NCBI GenBank assembly: GCA_028716225.1
Contig: JAQUQE010000001.1
Span: forward strand, 1-64,000
DNA length: 64,000 bases
Origin: Dehalococcoidales bacterium
Lineage (GTDB): Bacteria > Chloroflexota > Dehalococcoidia > Dehalococcoidales > UBA5760
Direction: 5' to 3'
The position numbers and the translations under genes are program-made. Shown here piece by piece: positions 53,351 through 64,000 of this stretch (positions within the stretch are counted from its first letter, which is position 1; the number at the start of each line of letters is the position of its first letter). The notes beneath the pieces are model-generated. The model made no database searches and was not told the origin of the DNA. It worked only from the letters and a program-made list of their open reading frames with translations.

Positions 53351-53449
53351 ATGTCGGCCATCATATTCTCACCTTATGATAACCATCCTGATATCAGATT
53401 TTCATTTTTCGCACCCTGTTTTACCGACAGCCGGAGGTTGGATTGGTAA
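53351..53449 (+). CDS. leader ORF coupled to wtpB
   Basis: A 32-codon frame starting with ATG right after the riboswitch, whose closing stem contains its AAGGAG ribosome site (spacing four). The peptide is MSAIIFSPYDNHPDIRFSFF followed by APCFTDSRRLDW, hydrophobic and aromatic at first and basic near its end. Its TAA overlaps the TTG start of the permease gene (53443). Translation of the leader would open or re-initiate at that TTG. This makes the riboswitch act on the permease by translational coupling. It may have no function as a peptide. Confidence 0.5.
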   Translation: MSAIIFSPYDNHPDIRFSFFAPCFTDSRRLDW

Positions 53450-54237
53450 AACAGTGGCTGAAATCCAATAAACTGACGCTGACCTTCATACTACTCGGGG
53501 CGATCATTTTCCTGTTTATTATCGTGCCTCTATTCCGTATGATTTTTGCCTCCGACCCGGGCATATTGAGAGAAACCCTGTTCGACCCCGAGGTAACCAA
53601 AGCGATATTGCTTACCCTGTGGGCGGCTCTTATCGCCACCGGGATTGGTTTCGTACTCGGGGTGCCTTTAGCTTACCTACTGGCCCGTTATGAATTCCGG
53701 GGCAAGAGAATAGTCGAGGGATTGATTGATGTCCCGATAGTCGTCCCCCATACCGCTGCCGGTATCGCGTTGCTCTTTGTCTTTGGTCGCAACTTTTTTA
53801 TGGGCAGTATTTTCGGTTCAGTAGGCATTCAGTTTGTCGATTCTATGGCCGGTATCGTGGTAGCTATGCTGTTTGTCAGTGTGCCTTTCCTGATAGACTC
53901 GGCTAAGGATGGTTTCAAAAAGGTAGATATTAGACTGGAGAAGGTAGCCCGTACCCTGGGTGCTTCATCCTGGCAGACATTCTTCATGGTTTCCTTTCCG
54001 TTGGCCTGGAGAAGCATACTCTCCGGAAATATAATGATGTGGGCCCGCGGCATAAGCGAGTTCGGGGCGGTTATCATTCTTGCCTATCACCCCATGATTG
54101 CCCCGACGCTAATCTACGAACGGTTTGAAACCTATGGCCTGACCTATTCAAGACCGGTAGCGGTATTACTGATTATAATAAGTCTGATTATCTTTGTCGT
54201 ACTGAGGACTCTGGTGCAGCGAGGGAAGCAAAGATGA
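53443..54237 (+). CDS. wtpB: tungstate/molybdate ABC permease (WtpB-like)
   Basis: A 264-residue permease with about six membrane helices. The ABC permease EAA loop is EKVARTLGASSWQTFFMVSF followed by PLAWRSILSGNIMMWARGIS and GEFGAVI, with the conserved E and G. It resembles ModB/WtpB. The start is TTG, with a CCGGAGG ribosome site five bases upstream; no ATG or GTG lies in frame upstream before a stop. It overlaps the leader ORF and the following ATPase gene (ATGA). Gene order is B-C-A with the binding protein last, whereas A-B-C is more common in archaea. Confidence 0.8.
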   Translation: MVKQWLKSNKLTLTFILLGAIIFLFIIVPLFRMIFASDPGILRETLFDPEVTKAILLTLWAALIATGIGFVLGVPLAYLLARYEFRGKRIVEGLIDVPIVVPHTAAGIALLFVFGRNFFMGSIFGSVGIQFVDSMAGIVVAMLFVSVPFLIDSAKDGFKKVDIRLEKVARTLGASSWQTFFMVSFPLAWRSILSGNIMMWARGISEFGAVIILAYHPMIAPTLIYERFETYGLTYSRPVAVLLIIISLIIFVVLRTLVQRGKQR

Positions 54238-55280
54238 TCAGGGTAAGGCACCTTTGGGTAGATCTAGGTGAATTCGTATTGAAAGATGCGAACATGGATA
54301 TCAATCAGGGGGAGTACTTCGTCATTTTAGGGCCTACCGGGGCCGGGAAAACGGTTCTGCTCGAATCTATCGCCGGCCTCTATCCGCTCAGGGAGGGTCG
54401 CATATGGCTTAACGATGAAGAGGTTACGAGACTTGAACCTGAAAAGCGTGGCATCAGCATCGTCTACCAGGACCAGATGCTTTTCCCCCACCTCTCGGTC
54501 AGGGATAATATTACCTTCGGTCTGAGAATCCGCAAGATGAAACCTGCTGAAATCGAGCGTACTTTAAGCTGGCTGGCAGGGTTGCTGGATATACATCACC
54601 TGCTTGGCCGCAAGCCGGATACTCTCAGTGGCGGAGAGAAGCAGAAGGTGGCCCTGGCCCGGGCTTTGAGCGTTAAGCCTAAGTTGCTTTTGCTGGACGA
54701 ACCGCTCAGCGCTCTAGACCCAAACAGTCGTGAGATACTCCAGCGTGAACTACGTAATATACATGAAGAGTACCGGGTAACTACGGTCCACGTTACTCAT
54801 GATTTTGAGGAGGCGATTGCTCTGGCTGATCGTGTTGCTGTAATCGGAGACGGTTGTGTCCAGCAGGTAGGCACTCCGGAGCAGATATTCCGCCAGCCCG
54901 GTTCGGAGTTCGTCGCTCGCTTCGCCATGGTGAGGAATATCTTTCGAGGTGAGGTAATTGAAGGTGAAAATGGAGATGCCCTCTTCTGCGTCGATGGGGT
55001 GAGTCTGTCTGTTGTCACCGGCTACCGCGGATTTTATCATGCTTCACTCCGTCCCGAGGATATCATCGTTTCCCATGCTCCCTTTCCCTCAAGCGCCCGC
55101 AACTCGTTTGGGGGGCAGATAACCGCTATTGCCGATAAAGGTTCCACTCTTCTGCTTACGGTAAGGGTCCCTCCCGATTTCATCTGCCTTATTACCCGAA
55201 ATTCTTTCGATGCCATGGATCTGTCGATAGGTGATAAAGTCTATATCACTTTCAAGGCATCTGCGGTCAATATCTTCTAG
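54234..55280 (+). CDS. wtpC: tungstate/molybdate ABC ATPase (WtpC-like)
   Basis: A 348-residue ATPase. Motifs are Walker A GPTGAGKTV, Q-loop YQDQMLFPHLSVRDN, signature LSGGEKQKVALARALSV, Walker B LLLDEPLSALDP and the H-loop VTHD. The C-terminal TOBE/Mop-like region (about 285-348: NSFGGQITAIADKGSTLLLT and IGDKVYITFKASAVNIF) resembles the oxyanion-binding regulatory domain of ModC/WtpC, so transport may be inhibited by bound molybdate or tungstate. Overlaps the permease gene by four bases. Confidence 0.85.
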   Translation: MIRVRHLWVDLGEFVLKDANMDINQGEYFVILGPTGAGKTVLLESIAGLYPLREGRIWLNDEEVTRLEPEKRGISIVYQDQMLFPHLSVRDNITFGLRIRKMKPAEIERTLSWLAGLLDIHHLLGRKPDTLSGGEKQKVALARALSVKPKLLLLDEPLSALDPNSREILQRELRNIHEEYRVTTVHVTHDFEEAIALADRVAVIGDGCVQQVGTPEQIFRQPGSEFVARFAMVRNIFRGEVIEGENGDALFCVDGVSLSVVTGYRGFYHASLRPEDIIVSHAPFPSSARNSFGGQITAIADKGSTLLLTVRVPPDFICLITRNSFDAMDLSIGDKVYITFKASAVNIF

Positions 55281-55360
55281 AGGGGGATTGTCATGTGATA
55301 AATTAAATGTCTGATGAGTCCTTTTTCCCATAACTCAATATCTATCTGGAGGTTGGTAAG

Positions 55361-56335
55361 ATGAAAAAAAGATTTTCTGTAGTCGTTCTTTGTCTGGCAG
55401 CAAGCCTTGCACTGAGTCTGGCGGTAGGATGTACCCGTCAGCCGGCTGACGAACCGGAGCTGTCAGGAACGCTGCACGTATTTCATGCGGGGAGCTTAGC
55501 GGCGCCATTCGATGAAATAACACAAGGGTTCAATGAACTCTATCCCGACGTAGAGGTGCTGGCTGAAGGAGCCGGAAGCGCCACCACTATTCGTAAGGTC
55601 ACCGAACTAGGTAAAGACTGTGGAGTGATTGGTTCCGCAGACTACCTGTTGATTCCCCAGCTCATGTTTCCCGACTATGCCGACTGGTACATTATCTTTG
55701 CCACCAATCAAATGTGCATTGCTTATAACGACGGTTCTCAATATGCCGATGAGATAGATGGCGACAACTGGTATGAGATACTGCAGAGAGAAGGGGTCAC
55801 CTATGGGCGTAGTGATCCCGACCAGGACCCGTGCGGCTACCGGACACTGATGGTATGGCAGCTGGCGGAAGAACACTATGACGTACCCGGGTTATACGAT
55901 GCACTTTATCAGGCTGAAGGGGATTTAATGCGCCCGAAGTCTGTCGACCTGATTGCTCTTCTGGAATCCGGCGATCTGGACTACGCCTTTGAATACACCT
56001 CGGTAGCTGCCGAGCAAGGATTGGAATACGTAGAACTACCGTCTGAAATAAACCTGTCCGACGAGACCTACAGCGAATTCTATGATACCGCCGTGGTGGA
56101 AATCGCCGGTACCGAGCCGGGGACTACCATCGAACAGAGGGGGACGGCTATCGTTTATGGAGTTACCATACCTACCGGCTCACCTGAGTACGACCTGGGC
56201 TTAGCCTGGATCGATTATCTTCTCAGCGACGCGGGTGTAGCGGTTATGGAAGCATACGGTCAGCCGGCCGTTGTTCCCGCCCAGACTAACGACGCCGGTA
56301 AAGTGCCCGAGCTGCTTCGAATATATCTCGATTAG
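55361..56335 (+). CDS. wtpA: tungstate/molybdate-binding lipoprotein (WtpA-like)
   Basis: A 324-residue solute-binding lipoprotein of the WtpA/ModA type. The lipobox is LSLAVGCTR (Cys about 25). The mature start GTLHVFHAGSLAAPFDEITQ, with AGS for oxyanion contact, is followed by GAGSATTIRKVTELGKDCGVIGSADYLLIPQL, typical of WtpA. DWYIIFATNQMCIAYND and YGRSDPDQDPCGYRTL, DYAFEYTSVA are further blocks. Tungstate is favoured by similarity to WtpA; molybdate cannot be excluded. The gene starts 80 bases after the ATPase gene with GGAGGTTGG ribosome site. Confidence 0.87.
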   Translation: MKKRFSVVVLCLAASLALSLAVGCTRQPADEPELSGTLHVFHAGSLAAPFDEITQGFNELYPDVEVLAEGAGSATTIRKVTELGKDCGVIGSADYLLIPQLMFPDYADWYIIFATNQMCIAYNDGSQYADEIDGDNWYEILQREGVTYGRSDPDQDPCGYRTLMVWQLAEEHYDVPGLYDALYQAEGDLMRPKSVDLIALLESGDLDYAFEYTSVAAEQGLEYVELPSEINLSDETYSEFYDTAVVEIAGTEPGTTIEQRGTAIVYGVTIPTGSPEYDLGLAWIDYLLSDAGVAVMEAYGQPAVVPAQTNDAGKVPELLRIYLD

Positions 56336-57269: not shown

Positions 57270-57647
57270 TTAAGCGCTCTTCTTCTTGAAGTATTTCTCC
57301 ACTATATTCAGTAAGTCCTTGGAACGGACAGGCTTACTAACATACTCGTCAAACTGATAGTCGAAAGGCTGCCCCAGCGATTCAGAAAAGCTGGTTATAG
57401 CTACAATCGGGATTCCGGAAAGGGCTTCATCCTTCTTAAATTGCTCTGCGGCGCTGAATCCGTCCCGTACCGGCATCATGATATCCAGAAGAATCAGGTC
57501 AGGCTTATCTTTCTTTGCTTTTTGTAAACCCTCGTCACCATTATAGGCCACCACTACTTCATAGAGCTTGCTTCTCAGTACCTTACTCATGACCTGGACT
57601 AGTTCGGCATCATCGTCGACAATCAGAATTTTTGGCGTCTTACTCAT
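57270..57647 (-). CDS. single-domain response regulator
   Basis: A 125-residue CheY-like receiver domain with no output domain. Acidic pocket IVDDDAE, phospho-acceptor Asp55 in LILLDIMMPVRDG, Thr in VAITSF and Lys in SKPV are all present. The start is ATG with AAAGGAGTAAT upstream; reading further upstream would add sequence from the kinase gene in another frame. It follows the kinase gene by 13 bases in the same operon, and is its probable phosphorylation target. Being a lone receiver, it likely acts by protein contact. Confidence 0.9.
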   Translation of the reverse strand: MSKTPKILIVDDDAELVQVMSKVLRSKLYEVVVAYNGDEGLQKAKKDKPDLILLDIMMPVRDGFSAAEQFKKDEALSGIPIVAITSFSESLGQPFDYQFDEYVSKPVRSKDLLNIVEKYFKKKSA

Positions 57648-57660
57648 AGCATTACTCCTT

Positions 57661-58965
57661 TCATTTTTTAATAGCCTCCTGTTTGATGGCTTGCCGATCA
57701 CTGGTACCTGCCTGTTTCTTCCTGGGTAGCGTGAAGCTGAATCTGCTACCCTTACCGGTTTCAGAACACGGGCTTTCTGCCCATATTTTACCATTGTGAG
57801 CTTCAATAATACGCTTGCATATGGATAACCCCAGTCCGGTACCGCGCTCCAGAGAGCCTTTGCTGCGGAAGAAATCGTCAAAGACATGGGGTAAGTCCCC
57901 GGCAGAAATCCCTATACCGTTATCGATAACTTCCACCTTTACTTCGTTACGGCTATCAATCACTCTAACCACCACCTCACCGGTAGCGGAGTACTTAATG
58001 GCGTTGCTGATCAGGTTTTCGGCTACCTGTTGCAGCCGTGGGCCGGACCCTTGAATCCGCCCCAGCTTTACCGGTGCCTCTATCCGGATAGTCATGCCTT
58101 TATCTTTAGCCAGACTTTCCATCTCTTCTACCGAATCCCGAATTATTTCCATAAGGTTGATTGGCTTCATCTCGTAAACGAGCTGCCCGGTCTCTATGCG
58201 CGGTATGTCCAGCAGATCCTTGATTAGCCGCATCAGCCTGTCGATACGCTGGGTGCTCTTCTCCAGCATGTCCCGCTGTTCATCGGTAATATCCCCGGTA
58301 AAGCCATCCAGCATCTGCCATAGGAATGATTGAGTAGCCACCAGCGGCGATTGCAGGTCATGGGCCACAACACCCAGGAAACGGACGAAACGCACCTTTT
58401 CTTCCTCCAGACGGGCGACCTCACGGGATATTTTTTCGAGCTGTTCCGCCTTTTGAGTCAGTAGCTCCGATTTCAACTGGGTGACTTTGACCAGGTCGAC
58501 TTCGAATTGCTTGCGTAACGAAATATTTCTCAGGGTGATTAGAGCACATGGCTCGCCATCAGTACTGACGATGGGTGAAGCAACGACGTCGTAAGTGCGT
58601 CCGTCCGGAAAAGCATATTCCCACCTTTCTATGTTCCCGCGTAGTACACTGGATCGACGGCATATATCACGGCACGGCTTTTCACGACCGAAAAGGTGCT
58701 TGTGGCACTTGGCACCTATACCGTTACCGAAGTCACGGATCATGCTCGGGTTCATGAAGCGTATCTTACTTTCGTGATCGATAATGGCAACGCCTTCGTC
58801 CATGGAGTCGAGCATGGCGATAAACTGATCGCGCTCATTTTTGAGGAGTTTTTCCAGGTAACGGACCCACTCCGCCTCGTTACCACCGGTAAAGGGGCCC
58901 ATGGTTAGACCGTCGCCATCCCATTTAGTTACCTCTGCCTTCGGGTATTTCGCTAAAGTTGCCAT
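57661..58965 (-). CDS. PAS sensor histidine kinase
   Basis: A 434-residue cytoplasmic kinase. A PAS domain (about 45-155) carries three Cys in a CHKHLFGREKPCRDIC pattern, which in similar PAS domains may bind metal or sense redox. A coiled linker leads to HisKA (His202 in VVAHDLQSPL) and HATPase_c (about 295-415: NLISNAIKYS, DNGIGIS, GTGLGLSI). No membrane helices are seen. It lies 121 bases downstream of the hydrogenase operon on the same strand and just upstream of its receiver gene; control of hydrogen metabolism is an attractive but unproven idea. Confidence 0.87.
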   Translation of the reverse strand: MATLAKYPKAEVTKWDGDGLTMGPFTGGNEAEWVRYLEKLLKNERDQFIAMLDSMDEGVAIIDHESKIRFMNPSMIRDFGNGIGAKCHKHLFGREKPCRDICRRSSVLRGNIERWEYAFPDGRTYDVVASPIVSTDGEPCALITLRNISLRKQFEVDLVKVTQLKSELLTQKAEQLEKISREVARLEEEKVRFVRFLGVVAHDLQSPLVATQSFLWQMLDGFTGDITDEQRDMLEKSTQRIDRLMRLIKDLLDIPRIETGQLVYEMKPINLMEIIRDSVEEMESLAKDKGMTIRIEAPVKLGRIQGSGPRLQQVAENLISNAIKYSATGEVVVRVIDSRNEVKVEVIDNGIGISAGDLPHVFDDFFRSKGSLERGTGLGLSICKRIIEAHNGKIWAESPCSETGKGSRFSFTLPRKKQAGTSDRQAIKQEAIKK

Positions 58966-59086: not shown

Positions 59087-60550
59087 TTATTCTCTGCGTA
59101 CGGTCCGGATTATATTACCGTCTAGCCCCCTGATATTTAGCTCCAAGGGCATCGGTTTATCCAGGGAGTGAGTGGCACAGGCAAGACAGGGATCGTAGGC
59201 ACGGAAAGCCATTTCCACCATATTGAGAAAGCCCTCTTCTACATCTGTACCCTTGACGAAGCCCTGGGCAGCCTTCTTGACCGACATGCAAATCGGTGCC
59301 GCATTATGCTGTGTCGCCACGATAAGATTGACCTTGGTAAGCAGGCCCTGACTATCCGTTTCGTAGTGGTGAATGAGAGTCCCCCGGGCCGCCTCCAAAC
59401 AGCCGATGCCGACCTTCTTCAGCTTCAGGTCCATATTGCGGATGTTAGTACCGGTAAGCAGGGGGTCGTTGGCGATTTGCTGCATGGTTTCGGCAGCCTG
59501 GAGCGCTTCAATCAGCCTGGCCCAGTGGAAAGCCAGCGTGTGGTGACTGGGTTTGTTACCCAGTACGCTGTACATCTGCTGGTATTCTTTTTGAGCCAGC
59601 GGCGTTGCCATGTTTTTGGCCACGTTCAGACGGGCCAGCGGTCCGACCCGGTATAGGGAAGTGCCCTCACCCTCAATTAAGCCACTCCAACCCACCTTGC
59701 GCAGGTGGGTCAGTCTAACATAGGTCCATGGTTCCACCCACTCGCCGATATGTTCGATATAATCACGGGGATGGAAGTAGGCGTACTCCTTGCCGGCAGG
59801 GTCGATGATCCTGATGTTACCGTCGTAGAAACTCACGTTGCCGGATTCATCGACCAGACCCATGTAATAGGTCTGTAATTTATAGGCATCGTTCAGGATA
59901 AGGTCCACATATTCCTTATTCTTCAGAACCACGTCTTTGAAGAGATCGAGGGCAAACTGGGTCATGGTAACCGCATCGTCTGCTGTCTTTTTGATCCACA
60001 CCCGCTCCTCTTCCGTGATACCGCGCGTGACACCGCCGGGTACGCCACCCTCCGGGTGTGCCGGTTTGCTGCCGATCAGGGCCATTATTTCACGGCATCT
60101 TTTTCTAATATCGATGACCTTTTTACCGACGTCAATCCCGGCTTTCTGAATGACGCCAACAATATTTCGTAACGCCGGATCGGCCAGAGGGCCGACCACA
60201 AAATCCGGTGCGGACAGGAAGAAAAAGTGGATAAAATGGTCTTCCAGCATAAAGGAGTTGTACTGTAATTGTCTGACAAGTTTGGCAGTCGGTGTAGGAG
60301 ACACACTGTACAGGTCATCCAGGGCCTTGGTTGCAGCCATGTTGTGCGGTGTCGGGCAGACGCCGCAGATATTGGGGGTGATACGCGGCATCTCTTCAGC
60401 AGGACGCCCCAGGCAAAACCGCTCGAAGCCGCGTAGCTCAACCACCTGCCAGTAGGCATCTTCGACATTGCCCTTGTCGTCAACGAAAATATCAATTTTC
60501 CCATGTCCTTCCAGTCTGGTGATGGGATTGATGGTTATTTTTTTAGTCAT
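59087..60550 (-). CDS. [NiFe] hydrogenase large subunit (MvhA-like)
   Basis: The 487-residue catalytic subunit, which splits or forms H2 at a Ni-Fe(CN)2CO site. Ligand Cys pairs are ITPNICGVCPTPH (L1, with Asn in place of the usual Arg before Ile) and DPCLACATHSLDKP (L2). The C terminus runs 26 residues beyond the L2 His, as in unprocessed precursors that a maturation protease trims; that protease gene is not in the window. The start overlaps the small-subunit gene by eight bases. Overall it fits group 3 cytoplasmic enzymes (F420/MvhA-type lineage). Confidence 0.9.
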   Translation of the reverse strand: MTKKITINPITRLEGHGKIDIFVDDKGNVEDAYWQVVELRGFERFCLGRPAEEMPRITPNICGVCPTPHNMAATKALDDLYSVSPTPTAKLVRQLQYNSFMLEDHFIHFFFLSAPDFVVGPLADPALRNIVGVIQKAGIDVGKKVIDIRKRCREIMALIGSKPAHPEGGVPGGVTRGITEEERVWIKKTADDAVTMTQFALDLFKDVVLKNKEYVDLILNDAYKLQTYYMGLVDESGNVSFYDGNIRIIDPAGKEYAYFHPRDYIEHIGEWVEPWTYVRLTHLRKVGWSGLIEGEGTSLYRVGPLARLNVAKNMATPLAQKEYQQMYSVLGNKPSHHTLAFHWARLIEALQAAETMQQIANDPLLTGTNIRNMDLKLKKVGIGCLEAARGTLIHHYETDSQGLLTKVNLIVATQHNAAPICMSVKKAAQGFVKGTDVEEGFLNMVEMAFRAYDPCLACATHSLDKPMPLELNIRGLDGNIIRTVRRE

Positions 60551-61535
60551 CCGATTTCACCTCGTCTGATTGGAGTTTTTTCTGATTCATGATTGATATT
60601 GGTAGCGAAAAGCGGTAGAGGTAACCGATAGTGTCGCGGACCTGGTCGGAAATTTTTTCCAGTCCCGCCTCATCGTCGGCATCAATCATTGATGCCAGAC
60701 CGGACAGGAACTTAGCGCCCGAATCAGCTACCAGTTCGATATGTCCGAAACAACCCCGGCACGGTATATTAATATTGATGCAGGATTCTCCGCATCCCGA
60801 GCGCGTCGCCGGCCCCATGCAGATGATGCCTTGCGATAGGAAACACTTGGTCGGATCGGCCTCTACTTCGTGTATTCTCTTAATCTCGGTTATGGCCACC
60901 TTATTCGGCTTGCTGGCATTGCGCGGGCAGGTATCGCACAGGGCCTTGTGAGACGCCAGGCTCGAGCCCTTGGCCGGCAGGGTATTTTCCAGGAAAGCGG
61001 TGATCGCCTTTAATACCAGATATGGCGGCGGCGGACAGCCGGGTAGATAATAGTCCACATCAATTACCTGGTCCAGAGAGTGTACGCTTTCAAACATTTC
61101 CGGCAGCGTGAGTTCCTTACCGTCCACTCTAGTAGTAGTTTGAGGACAGACACCTTTGGGATTTATCACCGTAGGAGCTTCTTGATACACCCAGCGAAAG
61201 ATATCCTCTTTGGATCGTAGATTAGCCAGCCCCGGCGTGCCGCCGAAACAGGCACAGGCACCGAAGGCCAGTATCACCTGAGACTTCTGGCGCATAAGTT
61301 TAGCCATTTCGGCATGGTCCGAGTTCCGGACATGACCGTTGATTATACCCAGGGCAATCTCGCCGTCAGCCATTTTCTCGATGTGATGGTATTTGAAATC
61401 GAGGGCTACCGGCCAAAGCACCAGATCAACGGAATTGACCACACCGAGTATCAGTTCATTTATATCTACGATAGTCTCATCGCAGCCACCGCAACTACCC
61501 AGCCATAGAATTGCGACCTTCTTTTTATCCGTCAT
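60543..61535 (-). CDS. [NiFe] hydrogenase small subunit (MvhG-like)
   Basis: The electron-transfer small subunit, 330 residues, no Tat signal, so cytoplasmic. LWLGSCGGCDETIVDI supplies the proximal cluster's CxxC, followed by FGACACFGGTPG and YLPGCPPPP. A C-terminal pair of Cys groups (CFLSQGIICMGPATRSGCGE, CININIPCRGC) gives further Fe-S sites. The ATG at 61535 has an AAGGGGAG ribosome site; an earlier ATG (61562) overlaps the MvhD stop as ATGA but lacks one. It overlaps the large-subunit gene. Confidence 0.88.
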   Translation of the reverse strand: MTDKKKVAILWLGSCGGCDETIVDINELILGVVNSVDLVLWPVALDFKYHHIEKMADGEIALGIINGHVRNSDHAEMAKLMRQKSQVILAFGACACFGGTPGLANLRSKEDIFRWVYQEAPTVINPKGVCPQTTTRVDGKELTLPEMFESVHSLDQVIDVDYYLPGCPPPPYLVLKAITAFLENTLPAKGSSLASHKALCDTCPRNASKPNKVAITEIKRIHEVEADPTKCFLSQGIICMGPATRSGCGESCININIPCRGCFGHIELVADSGAKFLSGLASMIDADDEAGLEKISDQVRDTIGYLYRFSLPISIMNQKKLQSDEVKSDD

Positions 61536-61558
61536 TTTTCTCCCCTTCTTTGCTGCAG

Positions 61559-61990
61559 TCATTTCGTCCGGGTTGCCGATTTTTTCTGTGTAGGAGTATC
61601 TCCGGAGCGAGGGCCGAGCTTGCGAACGGTATCGGCCATCTCCTTAACAAGCTGGGGCATGGTTTTACCCTCGGGGTCTGCCCCCAGGTGCAGCTTTAGT
61701 CTCTCCCGCTCTATACCATATGACTGCAGCACATTATACAGCAGTGTTATTCTTTTCCGGGCTTCGATATTACCATCTTGGTAGTGGCAGTCTCCTTCGG
61801 GGCAACCCAGTATCAGTACTCCTTCCGCTCCCTGACGGAAAGCAGTCAGGATATGTACCGGATCAATTTTGCCCGTGCAGATAATGGGAATCCAGTTTTC
61901 TAAGCGAGCGGCAATATCCTCTTCGCTTACCAGATAACCCCAGCTAAAGCGGCACGAAAAACAGACAATTTTGGGTTCTTTTTCTTTCAT
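61559..61990 (-). CDS. MvhD-like hydrogenase iron-sulfur subunit
   Basis: A 143-residue MvhD/HdrA-associated delta subunit that passes electrons between a hydrogenase and a flavoprotein. IVCFSCRFSWGYL, LILGCPEGDCHYQDGN and the IICTGKIDP block fit the family; the Cys set (CFSC, C, CPEGDC) would hold a 2Fe-2S cluster. It lies between the flavoprotein and the small-subunit gene, with the order flavoprotein-D-G-A. The C terminus is basic (RTVRKLGPRSGDTPTQKKSA). Confidence 0.85.
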   Translation of the reverse strand: MKEKEPKIVCFSCRFSWGYLVSEEDIAARLENWIPIICTGKIDPVHILTAFRQGAEGVLILGCPEGDCHYQDGNIEARKRITLLYNVLQSYGIERERLKLHLGADPEGKTMPQLVKEMADTVRKLGPRSGDTPTQKKSATRTK

Positions 61991-62013
61991 GTCAACTTCC
62001 TTTCCCGAATTCT

Positions 62014-63804
62014 TTACAGAGTGGCCAGTGCCGTCTCTATCCTCTTTTCAGTGTCATCTTCGACCAGCTTCCGGGCATGCGAAGGACAGGCTACTACGCA
62101 CATGCCGCATGACTTGCAACGGAACATATCGGTGGTAGATACCAGCCTTTCCTCTACTTCTTTCAATTGTGCTGCTTCATAGTTGCAGGCATAAACGCAT
62201 ATGCGGCAACCGCTGCACTTCTCTTCATCCACCTCGACGGCATATAATGATTTCTCAAAGCCAATGGAAACGCAGGCCTTACAGGAAAGACAGGGACCAC
62301 AGGTAAGACACCTTTTCGCCTCCTCGCGGGCTTCTTTGAGAGTAAAACCCTTCTCGAAAATTTGGAAGTGTAAACGCTTCTCCGGGGGCATCCAGAAGGT
62401 CTCTGGTTCCGGTTTGTAGGATTTTCGTAGCGGAAGCCCGAAGGTCTCAAAATCCCGCTTGCGTCCTTCGTGCATATCCAGTCCCCTCAGGAATCTCTCG
62501 ATCGAATCCGCTGCTATCACGCCTTCTTGCATCGCTTCCACCATAAAGCCGACACGCCGTACGTCACCACCGATGAAAACATAGCCCCGCCTTAAGCTCT
62601 GCAGGGTGAACTGGTCAACGGCCAGTTTACCTCTTTCATCGAGAAGGTCCTCCTTTCTTAAGAAGGCTACGTCCGGTCCCTGGCCTACGGTTATTATCAG
62701 CACATCACCTTCAAGGTTGATGGCATCGGTACAGTCAAACTGGGGATTGAAGCCATTCTCATCGAAAACGCTGGTACACCGCGGCGAGGTGATGGCTTTA
62801 AATCTACCCTGTTCGCCGACGATTTTCTGTACGCCACGTGAGTAGACTATCTTAATGCCTTCCTCCCAGGAGCCCTCAATTTCCTCTTCATCGGCAGGGA
62901 TGCCGTCTTTACACTCCTTATTCTCACACTCCAGGCAGGCGATGGTGACGTCGCCGCCAAGACGCTTGGCAATACGGGCTACATCGAAGGCAACATTGCC
63001 ACCGCCGATGACTACAGCCTTCTTACCCTTGAAGTAATCCGGGGGGAGGTTGCCATGGCTCACCTCGTAGAGAAAATTGAGACCATAAATGACACCGGAG
63101 AGGTCCTGGCCTTCTACCGGCTTTCCATTGAACGTCAGTACCCTGGCATAGGGCGTGCCTTTGGCCAGAAATATGGCCCGGTAGCCTTCGTTACGCAGTC
63201 TTTCAAAGGTCAGCTTGCCTTCACCGACCTTGGCATTAAGCTTGACATCGATATGGGCCACTCTTACCAAATTATCCAGGGTCTGTTGCAGGACGGCTTC
63301 CGGCAGACGGTACTGCGGTATCAGCCAGAGGGCACCGCCGAGGCGTTCCGTAGCTTCGAATACAGTTACCCGGTAGCCCTTCTTACTGAGAATGTAGGCG
63401 CACATGAGACCGCCGGGGCCGCCGCCGACGACAGCCACATTTTCCTTATCCTTGATAGTATCGAAGTCATCTTTATCCTTGAGGTAGTCGGTATAGGTGT
63501 CGGACAGGAAGCGCTTGAGCATCCGCCTCCTTATAGCGCCACCCCTGGTTTTATAGTTGCATTCGAGTTCACACAAGCCGCAGATATAACCGCAGATATT
63601 GAAAAAGGGGTTCTTCTCATAGAGATAATTGCCGATCTGTATAATCGGCTCTCTGGCGGCGTCAGGGTCTTCGGGTAGTAGTGATATCAGTACATTGGTG
63701 CGCTGGATGTCTTCATTGATGGGGCATTTGAGCTGGCAGGGCGGCAAGAACTGCTTCATTGCCGGTTCAACATGACTGCCCCCGCTACTCTGCGTCTTCC
63801 ACAT
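62014..63804 (-). CDS. GltD-like iron-sulfur FAD oxidoreductase
   Basis: A 596-residue flavoprotein of the GltD (glutamate synthase small chain) type. The N-terminal cysteine domain (CQLKCPINEDIQ, CGYICGLCELECNYKT) holds Fe-S clusters; FAD and NAD(P) motifs are VAVVGGGPGGLMCAYILSKK and AVVIGGGNVAFDVARIAKR. Two C-terminal 4Fe-4S motifs (CSGCRICVYACNYEA, CKSCGMCVVACPSHA) follow, plus a Cys row (CLTCGPCLSCKAC). With the MvhADG-like genes it likely forms a complex linking H2 oxidation to NAD(P) or ferredoxin, possibly by electron bifurcation as with HdrA. GGGAGGGAGAG ribosome site. Confidence 0.85.
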   Translation of the reverse strand: MWKTQSSGGSHVEPAMKQFLPPCQLKCPINEDIQRTNVLISLLPEDPDAAREPIIQIGNYLYEKNPFFNICGYICGLCELECNYKTRGGAIRRRMLKRFLSDTYTDYLKDKDDFDTIKDKENVAVVGGGPGGLMCAYILSKKGYRVTVFEATERLGGALWLIPQYRLPEAVLQQTLDNLVRVAHIDVKLNAKVGEGKLTFERLRNEGYRAIFLAKGTPYARVLTFNGKPVEGQDLSGVIYGLNFLYEVSHGNLPPDYFKGKKAVVIGGGNVAFDVARIAKRLGGDVTIACLECENKECKDGIPADEEEIEGSWEEGIKIVYSRGVQKIVGEQGRFKAITSPRCTSVFDENGFNPQFDCTDAINLEGDVLIITVGQGPDVAFLRKEDLLDERGKLAVDQFTLQSLRRGYVFIGGDVRRVGFMVEAMQEGVIAADSIERFLRGLDMHEGRKRDFETFGLPLRKSYKPEPETFWMPPEKRLHFQIFEKGFTLKEAREEAKRCLTCGPCLSCKACVSIGFEKSLYAVEVDEEKCSGCRICVYACNYEAAQLKEVEERLVSTTDMFRCKSCGMCVVACPSHARKLVEDDTEKRIETALATL

Positions 63805-64000
63805 GTTTTTATCTCTCCCTCCCTCTTTTTGAAATTTTGTCTTATTGACTTATCGCAAGCAAGTCCAGATTTAAGCATTAAGTATATTAAATAAAAAGAC
63901 CGATTGTCAAATAACTAAAAAGTCCGATAGGTGCTATCATAAAAGTCATAGATTATATTTAGTCAGACTGGCAAATTAAGAAAACAATAATTTTTATAAA
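63805..64000. other. upstream region of hydrogenase operon
   Basis: AT-rich sequence upstream of the operon's first gene, which runs leftward. It should hold the operon promoter; no clear boxes or operators could be picked out by eye. The right part is cut by the window edge. Confidence 0.4.

Follow-up and report, generated by a model that had tools for sequence, protein, structure and literature searches.

An Mvh-type [NiFe] hydrogenase operon with a GltD/NfnA-type flavoprotein in the HdrA position: a predicted H2:NAD+ oxidoreductase of Dehalococcoidales and other lineages

A 64,000-nucleotide stretch of the genome of a Dehalococcoidales bacterium (GCA_028716225.1, contig JAQUQE010000001.1, positions 1–64,000; hereafter the window) carries on its minus strand, between positions 59087 and 63804, four closely packed genes that encode a GltD-like flavoprotein and an Mvh-type [NiFe] hydrogenase. 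The first specifies a GltD/NfnA-type flavin adenine dinucleotide (FAD) protein (62014–63804, 596 aa), recognized from its open reading frame (ORF), Pfam domains (Pyr_redox_2, Fer4_20 and Fer4_7), alignment and predicted fold. It is followed by MvhD (FlpD; 61559–61990, 143 aa; Pfam FlpD, 6e-30, and MvhD chains of the PDB), the long, Mvh-type small subunit MvhG (60543–61562, 339 aa; Pfam Oxidored_q6, 5e-22) and the [NiFe] large subunit MvhA (59087–60550, 487 aa; Pfam NiFeSe_Hases, 3e-36). The gap between GltD and MvhD is 23 bp, and MvhD/MvhG and MvhG/MvhA overlap by 4 and 8 bp, respectively; Pfam and NCBIfam are concordant for all four proteins. A divergent pyruvate kinase gene (named from its translation) lies upstream of the GltD-like gene, so the operon is not cut off by the end of the window. 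The genome comprises 2.64 Mb in 156 contigs and is 96% complete.

The order flavoprotein–MvhD–MvhG–MvhA, which an earlier note had read from the letters of the window, is borne out by the ORFs and by Pfam, and it recurs in related genomes. The GltD family (E 1e-120) is present in 18 of 156 genomes of the order Dehalococcoidales. For the comparison of loci, 80 of 170 GltD matches were kept; nine of these (L162–L170, 34–38% identity) were excluded as other GltDs, and the remaining 71 named loci (L091–L161) comprise 40 of the window type and 31 of the paralog type. GltD is followed by MvhD (separate or fused), MvhG and MvhA in each of the 33 window-type loci whose downstream sequence reaches 3.3 kb or more, the other seven having less and standing outside this count; the order is therefore not due to chance. 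MvhA lies on either side of GltD in 17 of the 31 paralog-type loci; the remainder are either cut short or have no MvhA inside 4.5 kb. The window-type loci are labelled as Chloroflexota, Thermodesulfobacteriota, Bipolaricaulota, Acidobacteriota and Methanobacteriota (Ca. Methanolliviera, L160), a spread across phyla in which the labels of metagenome-assembled genomes are fallible (L102 is labelled Bacteroidales, yet in the tree its MvhA clusters with one from Dehalococcoidia); the acidobacterial L157 has the gene order but falls under the 3.3-kb limit. GltD and MvhD are fused in a paralog of the same genome (727 aa, contig C5) and also in L124 and L128. As the tree parts L128 from the C5 paralog and L124, the fusion probably arose more than once.

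The body of the flavoprotein (residues 20–440) matches NfnA, NfnL, StnC, GltD and dihydropyrimidine dehydrogenase by sequence. Its AlphaFold2 model (predicted local distance difference test score 84.7) finds its top fold matches in NfnA (9n5v_A, Z 38.8 over 464 residues at 2.6 Å), 9bov_A (Z 38.8) and StnC (8oh5_C, Z 38.0), with lower scores for NfnL (Z ~32) and an HdrA-like chain (6tjr_A, Z 21.1); these Foldseek/VIA fold lists bear on the GltD part of the models, not on MvhD or ferredoxin parts. Scores against NCBIfam GltD-type models fall below the curated cut-offs (best among the models listed: PRK12771, 325 of 516 bits), which marks the protein as a divergent member of the GltD/NfnA family. 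An FAD Rossmann domain begins at about residue 122, and the nucleotide Rossmann domain contains L291-E292. The GltD cluster motif, in its canonical form RCLxC...PCxxxCP, occurs here in two pieces, an N-terminal PCQLKCP (C23, C27) and a C-terminal RCLTC (C499, C502); two separated cysteine motifs of like kind are described for StnC in the Stn paper. C75, C78 and C82 form the second half of the GltD cysteine set (the match to NfnL being read from the alignment), C71, C505, C508 and C511 are extra, and eight further cysteines (C530–C573) make up an HdrA-like two-cluster ferredoxin tail. Eighteen of these 19 ligand-type cysteines are invariant in 33 aligned sequences and C573 is present in 32 of the 33; C343, in the flavin domain, is one more invariant cysteine.

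The tail (517–580) aligns with the C-terminal ferredoxin domain of HdrA, at which electrons from MvhD enter HdrA in the HdrABC–MvhAGD complex, according to PMC9012536. Judged from its sequence, the flavoprotein is a GltD/NfnA-type protein with a putative HdrA-type dock. An identification as HdrA itself was rejected, since only the ferredoxin tail (the last ~60 residues) matches: the NCBIfam HdrA2 model covers only residues 521–589 with 42 bits against 1100 required, the HdrA of the same genome aligns only across the tail, and the HdrA flavin core with its N-terminal and inserted cluster domains is absent in both comparisons. The earlier note's description of the partner as GltD-like with extra 4Fe-4S motifs, rather than HdrA, is thus upheld by fold and by ligand conservation alike.

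One HdrA is encoded elsewhere in the genome, on contig C16, where it is accompanied by an HdrC–HdrB fusion, EtfBA and a dedicated MvhD; the latter shares 40% identity with the MvhD of the operon. In all, the genome has three proteins or domains of the FlpD type and three large subunits of [NiFe] hydrogenases, none of these large subunits beside HdrA. The earlier note had suggested a genome survey for hdrABC and would have been contradicted by a separate HdrA pairing with the operon MvhD; the survey turned up only an HdrA with an MvhD of its own and no adjacent hydrogenase, so this contradiction does not arise; the note's remark that HdrBC are missing from the window holds for the operon but not for the genome, which has HdrA and the HdrCB fusion on C16. 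The C16 cluster (L024:5165–10628; EtfB–EtfA–HdrCB fusion–HdrA–MvhD, the Etf names assigned by reading) is without a hydrogenase and possibly encodes an Etf-linked Hdr complex.

A relative of MvhA (1e-70) occurs in 105 of 400 Chloroflexota genomes. Twenty of these MvhA loci were retrieved and read by hand, and in 17 the Mvh genes are directly preceded by an HdrA-type gene, which in some cases is fused or contains an inserted GltD or extra domains. The three other loci have a different GltD at this place with HdrA further up (L213), no such gene (L214) or a Hox-type set (L220). Because the GltD-like gene of the operon sits where HdrA sits in these related loci, it fills the HdrA slot.

The hydrogenase subunits are Mvh-like in most respects. 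MvhD has four invariant cysteines (C13, C38, C63 and C68), to which a [2Fe-2S] cluster is assigned by homology, and the best PDB chain for MvhG is 5odc_E (1.4e-66, residues 15–324). In MvhA the pairs C62/C65 and C455/C458 are intact (invariant in eight sequences), with DPCLACATH as the L2 motif; the L1 motif has Asn for Arg (NICGVC), as do 32 of 32 window-type MvhA rows. At this position 10 of 14 paralog-type rows have Met, and Arg is found in 16 of 17 HdrA-slot loci (L202 and L203 being read through a TGA) with Ser in L209. The best single PDB match of MvhA is 7t2r_D (395 bits versus 361 for 5odc_F), the large subunit of the bifurcating Acetomicrobium mobile HydABCSL; despite this match, assignment as a HydL/Hox-type subunit was rejected, as both the tree and MvhG point to Mvh. 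Group 3c features present are the two CxxC nickel-ligand pairs, the long MvhG, the FlpD-type MvhD and the grouping with HdrA-linked Mvh, and those missing at the locus are an HdrA partner in the operon and the L1 motif RxCGxC. HydDB defines group 3c as Hdr-linked. The operon is a real and conserved variant of the cytoplasmic Mvh (group 3c) [NiFe] hydrogenases, not a new kind.

In two of the HdrA-linked MvhA genes (L202:7390–8853 and L203:196–1680, minus strand), the second L1 cysteine is replaced by an in-frame TGA (RICGV-TGA-PGAHH), a candidate selenocysteine codon. The hosts are Chloroflexota of different families; a near-identical hairpin with a GGCC stem lies ~18 nt past the TGA, its fold no better than those of shuffled sequences, and tRNA-Sec genes score above cut-off in both genomes, as in five of five tested. 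Classic NiFeSe enzymes carry selenocysteine in L2.

In the large-subunit tree, GltD-linked and Chloroflexota HdrA-linked MvhA form a 64-row group (support 100/100), outside which three archaeal-type references and the HdrA-linked L219 lie on long branches. The 32 window-type rows group at 100/100, with HdrA-linked Chloroflexota MvhA nearest, and 45 GltD-linked MvhA together with the HdrA-linked L201 group at 99/94. The phylogeny called for in the earlier note accordingly places MvhA with HdrA-linked Mvh, not with Hox/HydL. Rows of a first tree were nearly all gathered via GltD, hence its cleaner look; the second added 20 rows gathered by MvhA. The trees omit L091 and L156, both 98% identical to the window, as well as MvhA fragments shorter than 440 aa, and a few N-terminal overhangs were trimmed for the second.

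An acidic residue at the end of β2 in a Rossmann domain is the usual signature of NAD(H) (nicotinamide adenine dinucleotide), and arginines that of its phosphate, NADP(H); NADH-dependent glutamate synthase shows the same arginine-to-acidic change. In the Mvh-type GltDs, β2 of the nucleotide domain ends in ‘LE’ (L291-E292 here) in 71 of 71 distinct sequences, counted as distinct 49-residue strings of a family set by at least 45% identity and thus one trait of one family rather than 71 independent tests. Other GltDs have ‘YRR’ there (11 of 11 domains in the same loci, five of five in L201–L220 and both other GltDs of this genome), and these NADPH-phosphate arginines are absent from the flavoprotein. 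The replacement of ‘YRR’ by ‘LE’ predicts NAD(H) as the coenzyme. The earlier note had proposed an H2:NAD(P) or bifurcating complex: coupling of H2 to a pyridine nucleotide remains the best reading, with NAD(H) favoured over NADP(H) by this signature.

We consider it probable, though by no means secure, that the four proteins form an Mvh-type [NiFe] hydrogenase with a GltD/NfnA-type flavoprotein in the HdrA slot, acting as a reversible H2:NAD+ oxidoreductase. H2 would be oxidized at the NiFe site of MvhA and its electrons passed through the MvhG clusters to the putative [2Fe-2S] cluster of MvhD. Within the GltD-like protein they would enter at the HdrA-like ferredoxin tail and move through the inner [4Fe-4S] clusters to FAD, from which NAD+ would be reduced by hydride transfer; the whole path would be reversible. 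Since the locus offers a single flavin and lacks HdrBC, NuoF and NfnS, a linear enzyme is likelier than a bifurcating one. Several points weigh against this interpretation. An HdrA-like protein is encoded in 16 of the 18 genomes with the GltD family, making Hdr cross-talk possible, and L201, although HdrA-linked, nests in the paralogous GltD-linked subclade (a single clade for all GltD-linked MvhA is not rejected; p-AU 0.252). The stretch that contains ‘LE’ is family-specific, such that nucleotide binding could be altered or lost. What the analysis establishes is the gene order and packing, their conservation across phyla, the GltD–MvhD fusions, the cofactor ligands and the predicted fold of the flavoprotein; that the proteins form a complex, which coenzyme it uses and in which direction it runs are inferred from these. 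The glycine motif of the flavoprotein is GxGxxA (GGGNVA), which PMC7483475 and PMC12054007 read as NADP-preferring, GxGxxG favouring NAD.

A somewhat unlikely alternative is that the GltD FAD bifurcates, sending electrons of H2 to both NAD+ and ferredoxin, or confurcates in the reverse direction, without HdrA, one flavin doing the job of NfnL or HydABC. The nearest folds are indeed subunits of bifurcating complexes (NfnABC, StnABC and NfnL), the conserved cluster cysteines exceed the needs of a linear chain, and the top PDB match of MvhA is 7t2r_D, presumably a bifurcating enzyme. However, no second flavoprotein (NuoF, NfnS or HdrA) belongs to the operon or is a conserved neighbour of it, the NuoE/NuoF partners of Bfu-type complexes (HydABC, NfnABC and Stn) are absent from the operon, and reduction of NAD+ by H2 runs without coupling; in Stn-type complexes, moreover, the GltD FAD serves as the entry point for NADPH, bifurcation taking place at another flavin. 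The broader proposition, of a widespread and unrecognized bifurcating [NiFe] class in which a single GltD-type FAD serves NAD+ and ferredoxin as acceptors without NuoF, NfnS or HdrA, the HdrA flavin core having been exchanged for GltD and the MvhD-docking ferredoxin domain kept, is in our view unlikely.

It is likewise quite improbable that the flavoprotein feeds or senses something other than NAD(H), with the histidine kinase and response regulator next to the operon detecting its state: such a role would fit a kinase that follows MvhA directly at no fewer than 11 of the 33 loci, and the loss of the ‘YRR’ arginines, which could mean altered nucleotide binding, but the catalytic cysteine ligands of MvhA are intact, the nucleotide domain of the flavoprotein is conserved, and the Desulfobacterota loci have a maturation protease after MvhA, mostly without such a kinase. 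Most improbable of all is a conventional Hdr-linked group 3c enzyme, in which MvhDGA would bind the C16-encoded HdrA and the GltD-like gene would merely adjoin the Mvh genes while serving some other function. The occurrence of HdrA and HdrCB in this genome and the HydDB definition would suit this, yet the C16 HdrA is accompanied by a separate MvhD and by Etf genes but by no hydrogenase, GltD occupies the HdrA slot in every complete window-type locus, and it is in places fused to MvhD; in two genomes with a paralog-type GltD–Mvh cluster (G002, 89% complete, and G005, 80%), both incomplete, HdrA was undetected at E 1e-30.

Around the operon, a sigma-70-like promoter match (TTGACA-18-TATACT, 63881–63910, minus strand, 11/12) lies ~77 bp 5′ of the GltD start codon, as a consensus match only. 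The PAS/HisKA histidine kinase (57661–58965, minus strand) is directly 3′ of MvhA, and the response regulator ORF after it (57270–57887, minus strand) overlaps the kinase with its 5′ end in another frame, its start being uncertain. The count of kinase relatives was made by hand in the complete window-type loci, and the kinase is possibly part of the regulation of the module. At 53443–56335, permease, ATPase and binding-protein genes, as read from their translations, have the look of a tungstate/molybdate-type ABC transporter. The genome of the window (2.64 Mb) compares with 0.8–1.3 Mb for eight genomes of the same genus (G001–G008; completeness 63–98%).

Contig C5 harbours the paralogous cluster (L021:9238–15363), arranged as MvhG–MvhA–HycI–[GltD–MvhD fusion]–MetV-like (PF12225)–hypF-D-E-A-B. 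The MetV-like gene recurs in relatives of this cluster, a hint of a link to methylene-tetrahydrofolate reductase; many of these relatives also encode an additional stand-alone MvhD, along with a protein of ~390 aa that combines MvhD-like and ferredoxin segments. The same contig carries a NuoF–GltD fusion with an FdhA/NuoG-like gene and a HydSL/Hox-type pair of subunits, the small one short, next to the large one (L022:6339–12155 and L021:148–3441), by its genes likely a separate bifurcating-type set, with an NADPH-type motif. A NuoF–GltD gene with HydSL-type subunits also lies near L099, L100, L105, L107 and L108, again as a separate set.

The GltD–MvhDGA variant is apparently undescribed: no account of an HdrA-free form was found in the literature searched, in which subscription journals were mostly uncovered and which included the available portions of PMC12054007, PMC5736913, PMC7325909, PMC9430772, PMC5037454, PMC7483475, PMC9012536, PMC2702500, PMC8674449, PMC7117923, PMC11650866, PMC8542988 and PMC9469722. 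One of these, on a Dehalococcoidia genome, invokes mvh with hdr as heterodisulfide-linked bifurcation (PMC11650866). Under the group 3c definition, the hydrogenases of the GltD-linked clade would be labelled heterodisulfide-linked bifurcators. If the flavoprotein is a GltD/NfnA-type NAD(H) module, H2 models for Dehalococcoidia, Desulfobacterota and others would need exchange between H2 and NAD(H), possibly without obligatory ferredoxin reduction. The exchange of HdrA for GltD at a conserved MvhD dock also represents a clean case of module swapping.

Among known systems, HdrABC–MvhAGD of M. wolfeii (5odc) resembles the operon in having MvhD, MvhG and MvhA that are homologous along their length, and its HdrA C-terminal domain corresponds to the ferredoxin tail of the flavoprotein; by contrast, the operon has no HdrA flavin domain, HdrB or HdrC, its flavoprotein is of the GltD type, and the L1 Arg of MvhA is Asn. 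The GltD-type subunits of NfnABC/StnABC (9n5u, 9bov and 8oh5) share the fold of the GltD part (Z 38–39) and the split cysteine motif, whereas they continue into NuoG-like parts, pair with NuoE/NuoF and carry ‘YRR’ (seen for 9n5u) where the present protein has ‘LE’ and a hydrogenase partner. The large subunit has its top PDB match in Acetomicrobium mobile HydABCSL (7t2r), presumably a complex with a short small subunit and NuoE/F/G-type partners, but the tree places the operon MvhA with HdrA-linked Chloroflexota Mvh. Type III HdrA, HdrL and the Moorella HdrA likewise present a GltD domain in an Mvh/Hdr setting, as a proposed NAD(P)H port (PMC12054007, PMC2702500 and PMC9430772); there, however, GltD lies inside a complete HdrA, the flavin part of which is absent here. 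Group A2 hydrogenases as described in HydDB (PMC5037454) also combine a hydrogenase with a GltD-type gene downstream, but the enzyme is of the [FeFe] and not the Mvh-type [NiFe] kind.

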